A stretch of 14,484 nt of DNA from Methanobrevibacter sp. (GTDB lineage Archaea > Methanobacteriota > Methanobacteria > Methanobacteriales > Methanobacteriaceae): the NCBI GenBank assembly GCA_009784145.1, contig WRCI01000025.1:1-14484 (forward strand). Reading direction: 5' to 3'. Under the pieces are notes generated by a model. The model was not told the origin of the DNA and did no database searches. It was given only the letters and a program-made list of their open reading frames with translations. Every line of letters begins with the position of its first letter. Position 1 is the stretch's first letter. The translations under genes were made by a program, and so were the position numbers. Below are positions 1,541 through 8,767 of the stretch, piece by piece.

Positions 1541-2860
1541 ATGGAAACAAAAAATATTTTAATAAAAAATTCAATTATATTAAATCCAAATGAAAATACT
1601 GTTGAATCATTTAAAGGAGATTTATTAATTGAAAATGATAAAATAATTGAAATAGCTAAAACAAACCAATCTTCAATATCCACAAAGGGTATTGAAAAAG
1701 TTATTGATGGTGAAAATAAAATATTGATGCCTGGTCTTATTAACACTCACACACATATTTCTATGAATTTATTTAGAGGATTAGCAGATGATTTAGCTCT
1801 TGATGAATGGTTAAATAACCATATCTGGCCAACTGAGGCGGGTTTGAATGGAGAATATTGTTATACTGGAGCTCTATCAGCACTTGTAGAAATGATTAAA
1901 TCAGGAACCACAACATTTAATGATATGTACTTTTTTATGGAAGATGTAGCTAAAGCAGTAGATGAGTCAGGAATAAGAGGATGTCTTTCCCATGGAATGA
2001 TTGATTTTGGAGATCAAGAAAAACGAGAAAATGAATTTAAAGAAAATATAAATCTAATTAAAAACTGTAATGGAATGGGAGAAGGTAGGATAAAAACTTT
2101 TTTTGGACCTCATGCAACATCTACTGCATCAAAAGATTTATTAGAAAGAGTAAGACATGAAGCAGATAAATACAAAGTTGGAATTCATATTCACATGAGT
2201 GAAACTAAAAATGAAGTAAATACTATAATGGAACAGGCAAAAAAAAGACCATTTGAATATTTAGAAGATTTAGGATTTTTAAAAGATGATGTTATAGCTG
2301 CACATGGAGTATGGGTATCTAAAGAAGAAATGGATATAATAAAAAAAAGAGATGTTAAAATATCTCACAATCCATGTAGTAATATGAAATTATCTTCAGG
2401 AATAGCTCCAATTCAAGAGATGATATCAAAAAGTATTTGTGTAGGGATTGGAACTGATGGAGCTGCATCAAACAATAATTTAGATATGTTTGAAGAGATG
2501 AAATTTGCTTCACTTCTTCAAAAAGTAAGTACTTTAAACCCTCAAGCTCTAAACTCTAACCAAACTATCCAAATGGCTACTATAAATGGAGCAAAAGCAT
2601 TGAACTTAAATAAAGAAATAGGTTCAATAGAAGAAAATAAAAAAGCAGATATTATACTAATAGATGCAAATTCAATTAATTTAACTCCAATAAGTGATCT
2701 AATAAGTTCAAATCTAGTTTATGCAGCTAATGGATCTAATGTAAACACAACAATTTGTAATGGTAAAATATTAATGGAAAATAGAAAACTCAGCATATTA
2801 GATGAAAATAAAATTATAAAAAAAGCTAATATAGCTATTAAAGAATTAAAACAGTTGTAA
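1541..2860 (+). CDS. dadD: 5'-deoxyadenosine / S-adenosylhomocysteine deaminase (amidohydrolase)
   Basis: This is a 439-residue metal-dependent amidohydrolase of the SAH/MTA/5'-deoxyadenosine deaminase family. In methanogens the DadD enzyme deaminates 5'-deoxyadenosine, SAH and related by-products of radical-SAM and methyltransferase reactions, so that the ribose and purine can be recycled. The metal and catalytic residues are all present: HTH at residues 70-72 in PGLINTHTHISMNLFRG, HIHMSE with His218 and Glu221, His255 in AAHGVWVS, and Asp306 in GIGTDGAASNNNLDM. The SHNPCSNMKLSSGIAP block (275-290) is characteristic of this branch. Length is normal for the family (about 420-440). The start is fixed by GGTGA five bases before the ATG. 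It is a single-gene unit. MtaD-type methylthioadenosine deaminase is the nearest alternative name; sequence alone does not separate the substrates. Confidence 0.9.
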   Translation: METKNILIKNSIILNPNENTVESFKGDLLIENDKIIEIAKTNQSSISTKGIEKVIDGENKILMPGLINTHTHISMNLFRGLADDLALDEWLNNHIWPTEAGLNGEYCYTGALSALVEMIKSGTTTFNDMYFFMEDVAKAVDESGIRGCLSHGMIDFGDQEKRENEFKENINLIKNCNGMGEGRIKTFFGPHATSTASKDLLERVRHEADKYKVGIHIHMSETKNEVNTIMEQAKKRPFEYLEDLGFLKDDVIAAHGVWVSKEEMDIIKKRDVKISHNPCSNMKLSSGIAPIQEMISKSICVGIGTDGAASNNNLDMFEEMKFASLLQKVSTLNPQALNSNQTIQMATINGAKALNLNKEIGSIEENKKADIILIDANSINLTPISDLISSNLVYAANGSNVNTTICNGKILMENRKLSILDENKIIKKANIAIKELKQL

Positions 2861-2950
2861 ATTTATAAAAATGGAATAAAGTTTAAATATTTTGAATAAT
2901 AAAATTTTAAAGCTTTTACAAACAGCGAATTGTCTATTTGCATTGATTAT

Positions 2951-2985
2951 AAACTAATGAATTATTTTCATGAAATTATTAGTTT
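2951..2985 (+). other. Inverted repeat / stem-loop downstream of dadD
   Basis: AAACTAAT at 2951-2958 pairs perfectly with ATTAGTTT at 2978-2985. The loop contains the perfect 10-bp palindrome TTTCATGAAA (2966-2975), off-centre by about 2.5 bp. The whole could fold as an interrupted hairpin. It lies 90 bases after the dadD stop, inside the 292-bp gap before the restriction genes. It may be a 3' end structure of the dadD transcript or a trace of the cassette boundary; no T-run follows it directly. Confidence 0.45.
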
Positions 2986-3095
2986 AAGAATATTTTAATA
3001 AAAATAGAATTGTATTGCTTTAAATAATATGAAAAACAAATCGAAAATAATTAATAAAAAATATAATAAATAGTTTTTGAAATTCTGGAAATATT

Positions 3096-3103
3096 TTTAT
3101 ATA
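3096..3103 (+). promoter_or_regulatory. Archaeal TATA box for the restriction endonuclease genes
   Basis: TTTATATA matches the archaeal TATA consensus. Transcription would start about 25 bases downstream, near 3127, leaving a leader that contains the GAGAGGT ribosome-binding site before the ATG at 3153. It is assigned by position only. Confidence 0.5.
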
Positions 3104-3152
3104 TTTTTAAATTAATTTCAATTACATCATTTATCATAAGAGAGGTTATTTA

Positions 3153-3899
3153 ATGGCTAATGATGGATTTAGAAATGAAGATGAAATTGTTTCAGTGCTA
3201 AATGGAAAAAGATATAAGGAAATTAATTCAAATATGAAGAAATTTTTAAAAACTATTTTTCAAATTGCACCCAAATCTAATGATATTATTATTTGTAATA
3301 AAATAGCTGGAACTGAAAAAACAGATATTTTTATTAAAATCAATGATGAAACTCACTATATCAGTATAAAAAAAGGAAGTGGGAACAGTGTCCATCAAGA
3401 ACCTGTGGAAGAATTTATAAATTATTTGAAAGAAAAATTTAATATTTCAAAGGATATTGCTGAGGATATACGATTTTTTATATGGGGAGATAATACTTTA
3501 GATGGGAAAGGAGATTTAAAGAACAGATTAAGTGCTAACCAACTGAAAAAAATGTTTCCTGAAAAGATTAAAAATATAAATAACTTTTTTGATTTGTATA
3601 AACAAGAATTAATAACTCGTTTTTTAATTGAAGGTTCTGAATGTGCTGTTGATCCAGATTATATATATTATGGTACTGCAGAAGAAGGTGTTGGAATTTC
3701 TATGGTTGACGCTGTGGAATGGCTAATTGAAACAAATAAAAATGTAAAATCCATTACCATCGGCAAATTAACATTTCAAGCATGGAATAGAAATATTAAT
3801 GGTGGGACAAAATCTGAAAATAAAAGAGGACAGATTCAAGTTAAGTGGGGAAGTATTGGAAAGGATACTACAAAAATCTGGGAGAATAAATATGGTTAA
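3153..3899 (+). CDS. Putative type II restriction endonuclease, subunit 1
   Basis: A 248-residue protein in a cassette with two m5C methyltransferases. I infer a PD-(D/E)XK-type nuclease from Asp58 in EKTDIFIKI followed by strand YISIKKG with Ser71-x-Lys73, and acidic residues Glu83, Glu86 and Glu87 in the next helix. A Ser in place of the usual Glu/Asp before the Lys, with a Glu about 13 residues later, recalls the rearranged active site described for Cfr10I/NgoMIV-type enzymes; that comparison is from memory. The N-terminus (N3, G5, E11) and C-terminus (GTKSENKRGQIQVKW) resemble the next gene's product, suggesting divergent homologues. The ATG follows GAGAGGT. The stop overlaps the downstream start by 8 bp (ATGGTTAA), implying translational coupling. 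The function call rests on context plus these motifs; the recognition site is unknown. Confidence 0.72.
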   Translation: MANDGFRNEDEIVSVLNGKRYKEINSNMKKFLKTIFQIAPKSNDIIICNKIAGTEKTDIFIKINDETHYISIKKGSGNSVHQEPVEEFINYLKEKFNISKDIAEDIRFFIWGDNTLDGKGDLKNRLSANQLKKMFPEKIKNINNFFDLYKQELITRFLIEGSECAVDPDYIYYGTAEEGVGISMVDAVEWLIETNKNVKSITIGKLTFQAWNRNINGGTKSENKRGQIQVKWGSIGKDTTKIWENKYG

Positions 3900-4674
3900 T
3901 AAGGGAACCTCTGAAGGAACCGAAGAAGAAATAAAATTTGTAAAAGAATTAAATAAGAAAAATAAAGAACTTTGGAATATTATTGATTTGGATTCTGAAA
4001 CACATTATGGAATCCATGTTGTTACAAAAAAATTTGGTAAAATAAGTAATCAAAAAGTTCTGCCTAAAGCAGATGTTTTTATAGCAAATGGTATTTTGAG
4101 TGATGATTTTCTAAGAAAAAATGATTATTATTTGAATGATAATCAAATAGATTCATTACACTTGAAACCAGTTGATTTGACTGGAATTTCTGTTAAAAGA
4201 CCAGATTCAAGAAGTTATCAAATACAAAAATTAACTCCTGAAACTTTCAAAAAAATTTTTGGAAGCTATGAACTTGGTGCTGGAGCATCATTATATTCAA
4301 AGTCTGAAAAAGATTTTCACAAAAATAACAGCGTTATTGAAGGTTGGAAAACTAATTTAAAAGATTTTTTAAACTTTTTTAGAGAAAAAAACAGATTAGA
4401 TATATCAAAAAATAATGTAGATTTTAATATAAGTGATGCTAAAATCATCAAGCATTTTGCTACATCAAAAATTTCTAAAATTGTTAATGAAAATGAATTA
4501 GTTTCAAAATTTGTTTTTCAAGGCATAGGAAATTTTGAAGAGCCTTACACAGTACATTATTTATTTGAAAAAGGAGAATTAAAAAAATCGTGCTTTATTC
4601 CTTTTTCAGTTACAACAGGCTCTGGAAGAAGTAAGGGAACATTTACAGTAGTGTTAAAACCTAAATCCCATTAA
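3892..4674 (+). CDS. Putative type II restriction endonuclease, subunit 2
   Basis: A 260-residue protein whose ATG at 3892 lies inside the end of the preceding gene and follows GGGAG; an upstream in-frame extension to 3799 would overlap that gene by 100 bp and is unlikely. The proposed nuclease motif is Asp61 (PKADVFIANG), then GISVKRP with Ser100-x-Lys102, and Glu117 in LTPETFKKIF. The spacing between Asp and Lys is much longer (41 residues) than in subunit 1 (15). The N-terminus MVNKGTSEGTEEEIKFVKEL has the Asn3, Gly5, Glu11 arrangement also found in subunit 1, and the tail TGSGRSKGTFTVVLKP echoes the other tail. The two proteins therefore look like distant paralogues that may form a heterodimer. 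The gene ends tail-to-tail with the methyltransferase gene, overlapping it by 14 bp. I do not recognise a named enzyme. Confidence 0.7.
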   Translation: MVNKGTSEGTEEEIKFVKELNKKNKELWNIIDLDSETHYGIHVVTKKFGKISNQKVLPKADVFIANGILSDDFLRKNDYYLNDNQIDSLHLKPVDLTGISVKRPDSRSYQIQKLTPETFKKIFGSYELGAGASLYSKSEKDFHKNNSVIEGWKTNLKDFLNFFREKNRLDISKNNVDFNISDAKIIKHFATSKISKIVNENELVSKFVFQGIGNFEEPYTVHYLFEKGELKKSCFIPFSVTTGSGRSKGTFTVVLKPKSH

Positions 4675-5683
4675 ATAATGTTTTAACAATTTCTTCTCCT
4701 ATGTATTTTACAACAGGTACTGTAACACTGTTACCTACTTGTTTATAACTTTGAAAATAATTTTCTTTAATTTTATAAGATTCTGGAAATCCTTGAAGTC
4801 TTAAACATTCACGTACTGATAGTTTTCTTTTCTCACTTACCAAAATAGGAACATTATTTCCACCAGTCCCCATTTTTGCTGTTAAACATGGACTAATCCC
4901 ATCATTTCTAAATGAGCATCTAGAAGGTCTTATTTCTGTTGCAAATAAAGGGTATGTTTTTTTAATTTTTTTCTTTAGTTCAAAAGAATTTAAATGAGTT
5001 TCTAAATGTTTTTCTGCTGTTTTTGTTATTGAAAAACCTTTAAGATTATTTTCTAAAATGTCAAATGCATTTATTTCTTTGTTTAATGGGTTTGGAAATT
5101 TAAAATAATCTATTTTATCTTTAAACCCCACAATATATATTCTTTCCCTATTTTGTGGAATTCCATAATCTTTAGAATTTAAAACTTCATAAAAAAGTGA
5201 GTATCCTAAATCTTTTAATGATTTTTTAATTATTTTAAATGTTTTCCCTTTATCATGATTAATTAGACCTTTAACATTTTCTAATATAAATGCTCTAGGC
5301 ATTTTATCCTTCAAAATTCTTTCAATTTCAAAAAACAATGTTCCTCTTGTATCACAAAAACCTTTTCTATATCCTCCAATACTGAAAGGTTGGCATGGAA
5401 ACCCTGCACATAATATATCATGATTGGGTATTTCATCAGTAAAAATGTTTTCAATGTTGCCTTTGGGATATTCTCCAAAGTTTAAAAAATAAGTTTCATT
5501 AGCCCATTTGTCAATATCCGAACTAAAAACACATTTTCCCCCAATTGATTCAAAAGCTAATCTAAATCCACCTATTCCAGAAAAAAGATCTATGAATGAA
5601 AATTCGACATTTTCATTACAAATATCCTTATCTGTAAAAGACAATAAATCTGTTTGAATATTTTCTTTCGTCTGATTACTCAT
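4661..5683 (-). CDS. DNA (cytosine-5) methyltransferase, GFPCQPFS type
   Basis: A 340-residue m5C methyltransferase that would protect one strand of the cassette's target site. The ordered motifs are clear: I, IDLFSGIGGF at 31-40 (SAM binding); IV, GFPCQPFS at 94-101 with catalytic Cys97; VI, ENV at 135-137; VIII, PQNRERIY at 176-183; a short target-recognition region about 190-290 with RPSRCSFRNDGISPCLTAKM and GTGGNNVPI; IX, RECLRLQGFPE at 291-301; X, QVGNSVTVPV at 315-324. I chose the ATG at 5683 because GGTG lies five bases before it and the upstream methyltransferase stops ten bases earlier. An in-frame ATG at 5743 has no ribosome-binding site and would overlap that gene by 50 bp. It is second in an operon after the other methyltransferase. 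It is not a recent duplicate of that gene: motif IV and the recognition domain differ. Confidence 0.93.
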   Translation of the reverse strand: MSNQTKENIQTDLLSFTDKDICNENVEFSFIDLFSGIGGFRLAFESIGGKCVFSSDIDKWANETYFLNFGEYPKGNIENIFTDEIPNHDILCAGFPCQPFSIGGYRKGFCDTRGTLFFEIERILKDKMPRAFILENVKGLINHDKGKTFKIIKKSLKDLGYSLFYEVLNSKDYGIPQNRERIYIVGFKDKIDYFKFPNPLNKEINAFDILENNLKGFSITKTAEKHLETHLNSFELKKKIKKTYPLFATEIRPSRCSFRNDGISPCLTAKMGTGGNNVPILVSEKRKLSVRECLRLQGFPESYKIKENYFQSYKQVGNSVTVPVVKYIGEEIVKTLFNGI

Positions 5684-5693
5684 ACAAACACCA

Positions 5694-6770
5694 TTAATAA
5701 GCTTTAAGATTGGTTTGATATTCAATTTTTTCATTTTTTCCATTTAACTTGTTTAAAACTTGATTTCCTATTGCAAAACCTAATAAAGGAGGTACTGCAT
5801 TTGCTAATTGTTGATGTTGGTCGGTTCTATTCCCCATTATTACAAAAGAATCTGGGAAAGATTGTAATCTAGCAGCCTCTCTTGCAGTAATGACTCTATT
5901 ATAATCAGGATGTATTATCATAGATTTAGTGGCATGTTTTATTGTAATAGATGGTTTATTTGGATTTAATCTCCGATAATTGTTACTATGATTGCCACCA
6001 ACATCATAAACCTCTGGAGGAATATCTTTCCAATTCCCCCCTTGTGGTACGCATTTAATTCTTTCAAGAACCTTTTCATTATGATTCATTTTATCATGGT
6101 TATATATAGATTTTTCATTATCCCACATATGTTCTTGAAATTTATTTTCAGGAGTATTGTATTTTGTTTTGTCAGTATCGGGAATGTTGCTTAATGCATC
6201 TAAAACAGTGATTTTTTCTTTTGACCTCTTTGGAAATTTTATTCTTCCAATTTTTGAGGCAATAAAAAAAACTCGCTTTCTTGATTGGGGTACATTATAC
6301 TCATCGGCATTTAAAATTTTATTTTCAACTATGTAACCTAATTTTTCTAATTCATTAATAATAATATCCTTAACATACTCTCCTTCAGGAGTTTTCATGG
6401 ACATTAAACCAACCACATTTTCAATGACAACAACTTTAGGAGCTATTATTTTAACTGCTCTAAGAACTTCTTTAAAAAGACTATTGCGAACATCATTTAC
6501 ATCTCTTGTGCCACACATAGAAAAACCTTGACATGGAGGTCCAGCAATTATTACCTCAACTTTCGAACTATATTTTTTATAAAAATCTTCAGTAATGTTG
6601 CAAACATCTTCATTTAAAATTTTTGTTGCTTTGTGATTTTTTTCAAAAGTTTCTAAAGCAGGAGACCAATTGTCTATTCCTAAAACCACATTAAATCCAG
6701 CCATTTCAAATCCTTTGCTAAATCCACCAATACCACAAAATAAATCAATGACTTTTGGTTTATTTTCCAT
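5694..6770 (-). CDS. DNA (cytosine-5) methyltransferase, GPPCQGFS type
   Basis: A 358-residue m5C methyltransferase, first of two in the operon. Motif I is VIDLFCGIGGFSKGF (8-22), motif IV AGPPCQGFSMCG (76-87) with catalytic Cys80, motif VI IENVVGL (116-122), motif VIII PQSRKRVFF (161-169), then a recognition region about 175-265. Motif IX is RLNPNKPSITIKHATKSM with REAARLQSFPD (to about 307), and motif X QQLANAVPP (320-328). All catalytic residues are present, so it should be active. The ATG at 6770 follows GGTGAT at ideal spacing; a TTG 21 bases upstream is in frame but has no such site. Only 41 bases separate it from the RHH gene upstream. With a different GFPCQPFS-type enzyme downstream, the pair most likely methylates the two strands of one asymmetric sequence. 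Confidence 0.94.
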   Translation of the reverse strand: MENKPKVIDLFCGIGGFSKGFEMAGFNVVLGIDNWSPALETFEKNHKATKILNEDVCNITEDFYKKYSSKVEVIIAGPPCQGFSMCGTRDVNDVRNSLFKEVLRAVKIIAPKVVVIENVVGLMSMKTPEGEYVKDIIINELEKLGYIVENKILNADEYNVPQSRKRVFFIASKIGRIKFPKRSKEKITVLDALSNIPDTDKTKYNTPENKFQEHMWDNEKSIYNHDKMNHNEKVLERIKCVPQGGNWKDIPPEVYDVGGNHSNNYRRLNPNKPSITIKHATKSMIIHPDYNRVITAREAARLQSFPDSFVIMGNRTDQHQQLANAVPPLLGFAIGNQVLNKLNGKNEKIEYQTNLKAY

Positions 6771-6811
6771 ACCATCACCCAAAATTGTCAACTAGATAAT
6801 TTTTTAAAAAT

Positions 6812-6997
6812 TTATTTATTTTTTGAAATTTTATTTTTAATACTTGTAGAAATGAAAGATTTCTCTGTAAGCCAGTTAATTACTATATTCCTAATAACAT
6901 CAGCATCACTTCCACCAAGTTCTCCTTTAAGTTTTTGAATTAACTCATATTGTTCAGGTGTGAAGTTTACTTGTATTCTTTTTGAATTATTACTCAT
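6812..6997 (-). CDS. RHH DNA-binding protein, candidate regulator of the methyltransferase operon
   Basis: A 61-residue protein starting MSNNSKRIQVNFTPEQYELI. It fits the ribbon-helix-helix fold: strand KRIQVNFT (6-13), helix PEQYELIQKLKGELG (14-28), a turn at GSD, helix ADVIRNIVINWLTEKS (about 32-47), and a basic tail ending KNKISKNK. The ATG at 6997 is preceded by GGAG with six bases spacing. A TTG at 7009 in frame would place this GGAG inside the coding region and is rejected. It is the first gene of an operon with the two methyltransferases (41-bp gap). Its promoter contains a perfect inverted repeat, so I infer autoregulation and control of the methyltransferases, a role usually filled by HTH-type controller proteins in type II systems. 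Confidence 0.82.
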   Translation of the reverse strand: MSNNSKRIQVNFTPEQYELIQKLKGELGGSDADVIRNIVINWLTEKSFISTSIKNKISKNK

Positions 6998-7026
6998 ATT
7001 TAACTCCAATAAAACTTAATATATAC

Positions 7027-7047
7027 TATATTACGACCCATAATATA
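7027..7047 (-). promoter_or_regulatory. Inverted repeat overlapping the RHH-methyltransferase promoter (candidate operator)
   Basis: On the plus strand TATATTA (7027-7033) and TAATATA (7041-7047) form perfect 7-bp arms around a 7-bp spacer CGACCCA, the only GC-containing stretch in the vicinity. It starts inside the TATA box and extends toward the expected transcription start, where a bound repressor would block TBP/TFB or polymerase. The likely ligand is the RHH protein encoded 30 bases downstream. This is inference from position and symmetry. Confidence 0.5.
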
Positions 7048-7051
7048 TAAA
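7044..7051 (-). promoter_or_regulatory. Archaeal TATA box of the RHH-methyltransferase operon
   Basis: Read on the minus strand, TTTATATA is preceded by purine-rich GAAAAG, a plausible BRE. The expected start, about 25 bases downstream (near 7020), gives a short leader carrying the GGAG ribosome-binding site of the RHH gene. Confidence 0.6.
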
Positions 7052-7114
7052 CTTTTCTAATTATTAATAATAATTTAAAAAGTTTAAATTGGAATATATA
7101 GAAGATATAATAGA

Positions 7115-8767
7115 CTATCTAAGAATAAACTTTATATCATGACCCTTGTTTATCACAATACTCTTTTTCCATTCGTCTTTTGTTTCAGGATAGTCTTCTC
7201 TGAAGTGAGCACCACGACTTTCTTTTCTAATTAAAGCAGATTCGACTATTAAAATAGCCATTTCAACCATATTAGTAGCTTCTAAAGCTTCTTGAAGTCC
7301 TTTATTATAGTGAGTTTCTTGACTAACATCCATATCTTTTAGTGTATCTTTTAATTTATTTATCTCAGATAATGCTGTTTTGAGGTCTTTTTCATTTCTT
7401 ATTATGGCTACATTCTCCCACATTATCTTTTGAAGATCTTTTTTAATTTCAAATGGGAAAATAGAACCTTTTTTAACAAGATTTTTTATTCTATCTTTTT
7501 CACATTTAATTTCTTCTTCATTTATCTCAAAGCTAGAAGTTTTAGCAGCTGTGGATGCAGAAATACCTGCTCTTTTTCCAAAAACTTGAGTATCAGCTAA
7601 TGCATTTCCTCCAAGCCTATTAGCTCCATGAACTCCACCAGCAGTTTCTCCAGCTGCAAACAAATTTTCTAAACTGGAATGACCATTTTCATCTATTCTA
7701 ACTCCACCCATAGTGTGGTGAGCAGTTGGAGCTACTTCCATTGGTTCTTTTCTTATGTCAATTCCAATATCTAAAAATTGGAAAAGCATGGTCTCAAGTT
7801 TTTCTTCAATTAATTCATCATCAAGGTGAGTAACATCAAGATAAACTCCACCATTTTCATTTCCTCTTTTACTTCGTATTTCATTATATATAGCTCTTGA
7901 AACAACATCTCGAGTAGCTAATTCCATTCTATCATCATAGTTACCCATAAAACGTTCATTATTTTTATTAAGAAGAATTCCTCCTTCACCACGAACGGCT
8001 TCTGTAACAAGAACTCCTTTTCTAGAGTCAGGATAAAGCATTCCAGTAGGATGAAATTGGATTTCTTCCATATCAATTAAGTCGGCTCCTGCATTGTAAG
8101 CTAAGCTAAATCCATCCCCATTTTTCTGAAATGTGTTGGAAGTTACTGGAAATAGTTGTCCAGCTCCACCCATAGCTAAAATTACTGATTTTGCCTGGAA
8201 AAATATAATCTCTGAATCTTTTAATGAAAATCCAACAGCTCCAATGACTTTTTTATTATTATTTTTATCAAGGATGAGAGAAGTCATCATAACTTCATCA
8301 ATAGTTTGAATCTTTTTCTTTATTATTTCCTCTTTAAGAGCCATTATAATCTCATGTCCAGTTCTATCTCCTTGAAAACAAGTTCTTCTGAAAGTCTGAC
8401 CACCAAATGGTCTTTGATTCAATTCACCAGAAGCTTGTCTATCAAATAAAGCACCATATTCTTCAAGGTCAATTAACCTATCTGGAGATTCATCAACTAG
8501 TATTCTAGCTAATTTGGGATCGTTTAGATAGGCACCTCCCTTAAGAGTGTCATTAAAATGAATATCCTTAGTATCTTCTCCATCCACAAAAGCAAATGCT
8601 GCATTATAGCCTCCTTCAGCCATTCCTGTGCATCCAGACCTAAAAGACAATCCTTTTGATACTATAATCGGATTAAGTCCGTTTTTTGATACTTCAATAG
8701 CTGCACGGCATCCAGCCCCTCCGGAACCTATAATCAATACATCGGATTTTATAATCTTGGTTTCCAT
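7115..8767 (-). CDS. tfrA: Thiol:fumarate reductase flavoprotein subunit A (CoM/CoB)
   Basis: A 550-residue flavoprotein of the fumarate reductase/succinate dehydrogenase/NadB superfamily. In methanogens TfrAB reduces fumarate to succinate with coenzyme M and coenzyme B thiols, yielding the CoM-S-S-CoB heterodisulfide, and feeds the incomplete reductive citric acid branch. The N-terminal FAD site is VLIIGSGGAGCRAAIE (10-25). SFRSGCTGMAEGGYNAA (41-57) lacks the His that carries covalent FAD in bacterial FrdA, so FAD should be non-covalent. Substrate-site motifs are HPTG (239-242), RGEGG (259-263), HHTMGG (350-355) and GETAGGVHGANRLGGNAL (373-390). There is no signal peptide, which fits a soluble cytoplasmic enzyme. 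No ribosome-binding site precedes the ATG, so the mRNA may be leaderless. TfrB is not in the window, as is usual in relatives. L-aspartate oxidase is the main alternative but fits less well. Confidence 0.88.
   Translation of the reverse strand: METKIIKSDVLIIGSGGAGCRAAIEVSKNGLNPIIVSKGLSFRSGCTGMAEGGYNAAFAFVDGEDTKDIHFNDTLKGGAYLNDPKLARILVDESPDRLIDLEEYGALFDRQASGELNQRPFGGQTFRRTCFQGDRTGHEIIMALKEEIIKKKIQTIDEVMMTSLILDKNNNKKVIGAVGFSLKDSEIIFFQAKSVILAMGGAGQLFPVTSNTFQKNGDGFSLAYNAGADLIDMEEIQFHPTGMLYPDSRKGVLVTEAVRGEGGILLNKNNERFMGNYDDRMELATRDVVSRAIYNEIRSKRGNENGGVYLDVTHLDDELIEEKLETMLFQFLDIGIDIRKEPMEVAPTAHHTMGGVRIDENGHSSLENLFAAGETAGGVHGANRLGGNALADTQVFGKRAGISASTAAKTSSFEINEEEIKCEKDRIKNLVKKGSIFPFEIKKDLQKIMWENVAIIRNEKDLKTALSEINKLKDTLKDMDVSQETHYNKGLQEALEATNMVEMAILIVESALIRKESRGAHFREDYPETKDEWKKSIVINKGHDIKFILR

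Follow-up and report, generated by a model that had tools for sequence, protein, structure and literature searches.

We analyzed a 14,484-nt stretch of Methanobrevibacter DNA (the whole of which, contig C25 of genome G000, is called the window here), and found in it a cassette of approximately 4 kb in which two nuclease genes on the plus strand, R1 and R2, face two complete 5-methylcytosine (m5C) methyltransferase genes, Ma and Mb, on the minus strand. The favoured explanation of the cassette as a whole, which we hold with high confidence, is an AciI-family Type IIT restriction-modification system whose nuclease is encoded by two genes. Under this explanation, R1 and R2 would pair like the two halves of AciI within its one chain, and each, by means of a D...SxK motif of its own, would cut one strand of an asymmetric site, for which CCGC/GCGG is the most likely candidate. 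Ma, an AciI-type enzyme, would methylate one strand of this site, and Mb, which belongs to another m5C class, would methylate the other. As judged by sequence comparison, then, the system is a two-subunit member of the AciI family, and its less expected feature is that the second methyltransferase is replaceable. The cassette consists of the following elements.

3096..3152, plus strand: region upstream of R1, with an A/T-rich TATA-like stretch (TTTATATA) and a GAGAGG ribosome-binding-like stretch before the ATG, both as read in the sequence.
3153..3899, plus strand: R1, 248 amino acids (aa), predicted nuclease subunit resembling the N-terminal half of R.AciI, with putative catalytic residues D58 and S71-x-K73 and conserved GNSVHQE and Q-x-K-W.
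3892..4674, plus strand: R2, 260 aa, predicted nuclease subunit resembling the C-terminal half of R.AciI, with putative catalytic residues D61 and S100-x-K102.
4661..5743, minus strand: Ma, m5C methyltransferase, ortholog of the second half of M.AciI, with its recognition segment at aa 271-301 of the 360-aa reading.
5694..6791, minus strand: Mb, second m5C methyltransferase, not an ortholog of the first half of M.AciI.

A preliminary description of this DNA had noted two small overlapping genes on the plus strand and, on the other strand, two full m5C methyltransferases that differ in motif. Both observations held: R1 and R2 share 8 nt, and Ma (GFPCQPFS) and Mb (GPPCQGFS) match PF00145 with E-values of 4.8e-96 and 2.3e-71, respectively. 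R2 and Ma, which converge, share 14 nt at their 3' ends. For R2, we prefer the ATG at 3892 to the start of the longest open reading frame (ORF) at 3799; 30 of 32 aligned homologs begin at most 2 residues from the former, the exceptions being P0193 (later) and P0216 (earlier). The true starts of Ma and Mb are likely at about 5683 and 6770, inside the longest ORFs, although this is a guess from the ATGs in the sequence. The R1-R2/Ma-Mb layout was found again in unrelated hosts, and is therefore not a chance arrangement. Below, L017-L053 designate these and other loci, P-numbers the listed proteins, and G-numbers other genomes.

R1 and R2 are assigned as nucleases by their homology to AciI. R1 aligns to residues 12-253 of R.AciI (38% identity) and R2 to residues 264-527 (35% identity), and because these are consecutive halves of R.AciI, we take the pair to be a two-gene relative of that enzyme. 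The PADLOC REase_II model PDLC03402, which has 527 positions, gave the same picture, with R1 on 11-256 (E-value 1.9e-51) followed by R2 on 264-527 (E-value 1.5e-36). A protein search of plasmid records matched two records, one of which is plasmid pAciIRM of Arthrobacter citreus NEB 577, whose 527-aa protein carries the name AciI in UniRef. Among curated families, R1 had no Pfam or NCBIfam match at the curated cut-off, and none was listed at all for R2. We also considered membership in the LlaJI-type (McrBC-like) systems, which have a GTPase-type nuclease subunit, and rejected it, as no GTPase-type nuclease family was listed for R1 or R2 in Pfam or NCBIfam (E-value at most 1).

To describe the family, we used three protein searches, which returned 289, 307 and 140 matches, and classed the 120 listed from each (360 in all). 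Among these listed matches, 121 consist of R1 alone, 121 of R2 alone, 101 of R1-R2 (including R.AciI) and 17 of R1-R1-R2, where the searches admitted only lengths of 0.55-1.75 times the query, fragments included, such that these class counts are not frequencies. No domain order other than R1-R2 or R1-R1-R2 occurs among the 360. The triple form is found at L032 5170-7521, L033 5980-8355 and L035 5983-8373, and its 17 proteins lie between P0289 and P0315. In a set of 38 loci (the window and L017-L053), R1 and R2 occur together in 33, as separate genes in 21, as a single chain in nine and as R1-R1-R2 in three; the R1 frame is broken in L026 and L038, and only the end of R1 was found in L043. The five loci without both halves are L027, L045, L046 and L050, which lie at the end of the available DNA, and L048, which has a short R1 remnant. 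It is mainly because of this fixed order and the frequent natural fusion that we infer a 1:1 partnership, in which R1 and R2 would pair as subunits. Separately, in G018 (C1:35722-37224; loci L009, L015 and L016) R1 and Ma are present and R2 is an interrupted gene, which we read as a natural loss of the putative second subunit.

Conserved residues suggest that each half carries a catalytic site. In the matches listed, R1 residues D58, S71 and K73 are invariant in all 237 aligned domains (first or only copies), and R2 residues D61, S100 and K102 in all 234, with domains under approximately 200 aa left out (two for R1, five for R2). We infer that these D...SxK motifs are two catalytic sites, whose arrangement may resemble that of the NgoMIV/Cfr10I-type SxK enzymes. 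The triple proteins provide a natural control: in the second R1 copy, D58 is retained in only 5 of 17 proteins, S71 in 9 and K73 in 5. This loss in the extra copy supports a catalytic role for D...SxK. The same copy keeps H81, E83, Q209, R225, Q229 and K231 in 17 of 17 proteins; these residues probably serve folding or DNA binding, and the second R1 copy is perhaps an added, non-cutting recognition domain. With respect to a Type IIT assignment, two distinct conserved motifs are thus present, one each in R1 and R2, and cleavage by them is a prediction. A D...SxK pattern is common to R1 and R2, and profile comparison, described below, gives no support to a common ancestor.

The two methyltransferases differ in their relationship to AciI. 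Ma shares 53% identity with the second half of M.AciI (383-701) over 320 aligned positions, while the best-matching class of Mb is its own, called beta below. Ma and Mb are therefore not the methyltransferase pair of AciI, as far as homology indicates, because the second is of a different class. The best PDB matches are M.HhaI for Ma and M.HaeIII for Mb, which we take as a guide to fold and not to site. An ortholog of Ma is present in 31 of the 38 loci (split over two ORFs in L026, and more than 4 kb from the nuclease gene in L028), and every one of these 31 loci has a second m5C methyltransferase. The seven loci without Ma are L023, L024, L025 and L031, where the nuclease is fused, and L027, L046 and L050, which are cut short by the end of the available DNA.

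Over these 31 loci, three classes of second methyltransferase can be told apart: alpha, which is AciI's own (11 loci), beta, which is that of Mb (11 loci, including the window), and gamma, which has the motif GSPCQDLS (nine loci). L022 and L034 were classed from partial genes, and L028 from its genome contig. The beta loci with Ma belong to methanogens and to several groups of bacteria, and one is on a viral contig. We compared the classes to a tree of R1 and R2 together, made from 28 loci of which 24 were labelled, excluding the long branches L035 and L047 and any locus in which a domain is incomplete. This tree requires at least 6 class changes; among 300 label shuffles the mean was 10.2, and one shuffle had 6 or fewer. 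Trees of R1 alone (25 labelled) and R2 alone (27 labelled) gave 6 and 7 changes, against shuffle means of 10.5 (1/300 as low) and 12.6 (0/300), and the counts were again 6 and 7 when the long branches were retained. There are fewer changes than in the shuffles, yet at least 6, and therefore the class partly follows the nuclease and has partly been exchanged. For example, L032 (beta) and L033 (alpha) have sister nucleases, and the beta loci L036 and L044 lie inside an otherwise alpha group.

CCGC offers three cytosines for methylation and GCGG offers one. One tentative possibility, to which we would give well under even odds, is that the AciI family is modular: Ma and the nuclease would fix CCGC/GCGG, and the methyltransferase of the other strand would be interchangeable among three m5C classes, which perhaps differ in the cytosine that they mark on the C-rich strand. 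In the two-gene form, each subunit would then be a natural half-enzyme specific to one strand of a 4-bp site.

We regard CCGC/GCGG as the probable site of the window's system, because Ma must read the site itself, and because its recognition segment is conserved up to and including M.AciI. This segment (aa 271-301) aligns with what we take to be the recognition part of an HhaI-like enzyme. Across the 29 further orthologs in the alignment, which come from alpha, beta and gamma systems (L026 was left out) and include M.AciI, 21-31 of its 31 positions are as in the window; M.AciI itself matches at 24 of 31, where it should be considered that the segment was picked after its conservation was seen in the M.AciI alignment. 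Eight other m5C methyltransferases match it at only 4/26 to 14/31 positions, bearing in mind that unlike recognition regions align loosely; in the catalytic part, these eight are identical to the window at 59-91 of 153 positions. The L033 ortholog of Ma is identical at 86 of 153 catalytic positions, and still at 26 of 31 in the recognition segment. According to PMC8112702, DNA of Arthrobacter citreus NEB 577 carries m5C at CCGC, detected at 320 of 8,549 sites, or 304 of the 1,324 where the method can cut.

It is important to emphasize that several observations weigh against an AciI-type system with this site. PDB profile searches with R1, R2 and the fused form gave no convincing relative, the lowest E-value being 0.007, for a sialyltransferase, with the R2 profile. 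Similarity between R1 and R2 was undetectable, with a profile comparison probability of 0.9% using 33 sequences each and 3.1% using wide sets, and we therefore do not propose common ancestry. At L023, L024, L025 and L031, which are in Campylobacteraceae/Sulfurovum genomes, the fused nuclease has no m5C methyltransferase in its flanks (short ones in the case of L024). L024, L025 and L031 have common neighbour genes; of the four genomes, G138 and G141 encode a Ma-type methyltransferase elsewhere and G140 a gamma-type one, and neither type was found in G139. Mb shares only 26% identity with the first half of M.AciI, against 29% with the second, and so is not AciI's partner enzyme. In 365 kb (20 stretches) of the window's genome, CCGC was seen 96 times versus 63.5 expected, i.e., it is not depleted. 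Finally, the Ma segments of gamma systems read IRKSR or VRKSR, not IRPSR.

The last three of these points, together with identities to AciI of only 35-38% in R1 and R2, would favour an AciI-family Type IIT system whose asymmetric site is other than CCGC, e.g., longer or shifted, with a change in specificity accompanying Mb. We consider such a site possible and the less probable of the two, as Ma must recognize the site itself with a segment identical to M.AciI at 24 of 31 positions, and as beta and alpha partners swap between sister nucleases (L032 and L033). A second alternative, that R1-R2 and Ma form a unit while Mb is an orphan or comes from another system, has in its favour that Mb is not orthologous to the partner expected. 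However, the beta class adjoins Ma in 11 of 31 loci in methanogens, several bacterial groups and a viral contig, its recognition region is conserved across the 11 beta systems, and in all 31 loci with Ma there is also a methyltransferase of one of the three classes, which makes this alternative very improbable. We likewise give little credence to R1 and R2 being independent homodimers that cut different sites, as their separate genes and undetectable mutual similarity might suggest, given that the 101 single-chain R1-R2 proteins among the 360 listed matches, including R.AciI, always have that order.

Site avoidance was rejected as a read-out of the target, because CCGC is over-represented alike in the window's genome, in G013, a relative in which the nuclease family has no match (110 versus 67.8 expected in 400 kb), and in 400 kb of G018. 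The cassette has no CCGC/GCGG and the window has three, too few to be informative at such A+T content. As a side observation, the most depleted 4-mers in the 365 kb are GGCC (0.48 of expected) and GATC (0.61), and GGCC is not depleted in G013. These depletions may reflect other systems; contig C14 of the window's genome encodes a further m5C methyltransferase.

Returning to the two-gene AciI-family system, its closest characterized comparison is AciI itself (Arthrobacter citreus NEB 577, pAciIRM, CP053690.1). PMC4081073 counts AciI among the Type IIT enzymes: a single chain holds its two distinct catalytic domains, and its methyltransferase is a composite, double one. The two systems have in common the two nuclease halves and the order in which they come, the D...SxK motifs, and one of the two m5C methyltransferases (Ma) with its recognition segment. 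They differ in that AciI's nuclease is one 527-aa chain and its methyltransferases one 703-aa chain, whereas the window has two overlapping nuclease genes and two methyltransferase genes, with Mb of another class. Since the halves are encoded separately in 21 of the 33 loci that have both, we do not take a single-chain nuclease to define the AciI family. We found no literature on a two-gene AciI-type enzyme or on such a system in methanogens, though REBASE may contain entries.

The broader proposal of the preliminary description, namely one Type II system with an asymmetric site, two nuclease subunits and one methyltransferase per strand, fits the homology to AciI. Its choice of BbvCI and Bpu10I as models is not sustained, because the relative in sequence is AciI. 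These heterodimeric Type IIT enzymes would be alike by analogy, in having two nuclease subunits, an asymmetric site and one catalytic site per subunit. However, PDB profile searches gave no BbvCI match (E-value at most 10; the presence of BbvCI in that PDB copy was unchecked), and the motifs given for BbvCI in PMC6326814, ED...EVK and HD...ECK, are of ExK type, whereas R1 and R2 carry SxK.

Some AciI-family systems that have both nuclease halves and a pair of methyltransferases are on mobile elements: L053 (5004-8560) is in Terrisporobacter phage TPDSL_ph1, and L052 (3179-6810) is in a mobilizable Staphylococcus kloosii plasmid (NZ_CP027847.1). The phage system resembles the window's in having two separate nuclease genes. 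Unlike in the window, the second methyltransferase of both is of AciI's own class.

The setting of the cassette is as follows.

1541-2860, plus strand: amidohydrolase gene, flanking the cassette.
6812..7009, minus strand: small ribbon-helix-helix/ParG-like gene (PF09274, E-value 1.4e-5).
7115-8767, minus strand: fumarate reductase-type flavoprotein gene, flanking the cassette.

AciI has adjacent helix-turn-helix genes, whereas the window's small gene is ribbon-helix-helix-like. Its protein possibly regulates the methyltransferase genes, taking the place that the control protein has in AciI; the gene, which lies ahead of Mb, had one further match (L017) among the 37 other loci scanned.

The source genome is 1.5 Mb and an estimated 65% complete. 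We searched five genomes of the genus, including the window's own, for the flanking proteins. Their matches are only 103 bp (G013) and 87 bp (G012) apart in two relatives, where the cassette is missing, and 459 bp (G014) and 1.7 kb (G015) apart in two others, with other ORFs between them. The cassette thus looks like an insertion between the amidohydrolase and flavoprotein genes. The counterparts of positions 2861-7114 of the window vary, from approximately 100 bp in G012 and G013 to stretches with other ORFs in G014 and G015, and this spot may be a hot spot for insertions. Of 138 genomes in the family-level group, 5 (counting the window's own) have a match to the nuclease family, as against none of 14 control genomes. 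Among the matches listed, the closest named relatives of R1 and R2 come from Methanobrevibacter curvatus and Candidatus Methanoflexus mossambicus.

These results tie a pair of methanogen proteins, annotated as hypothetical in their named relatives, to a characterized enzyme, with a predicted site. With a two-subunit AciI, variants that nick an asymmetric site of 4 bp could be sought one subunit at a time. A family in which the second methyltransferase is exchanged but the nuclease and Ma are conserved would be a clean case in which to ask how the modification half of an asymmetric system can be replaced while the host survives.

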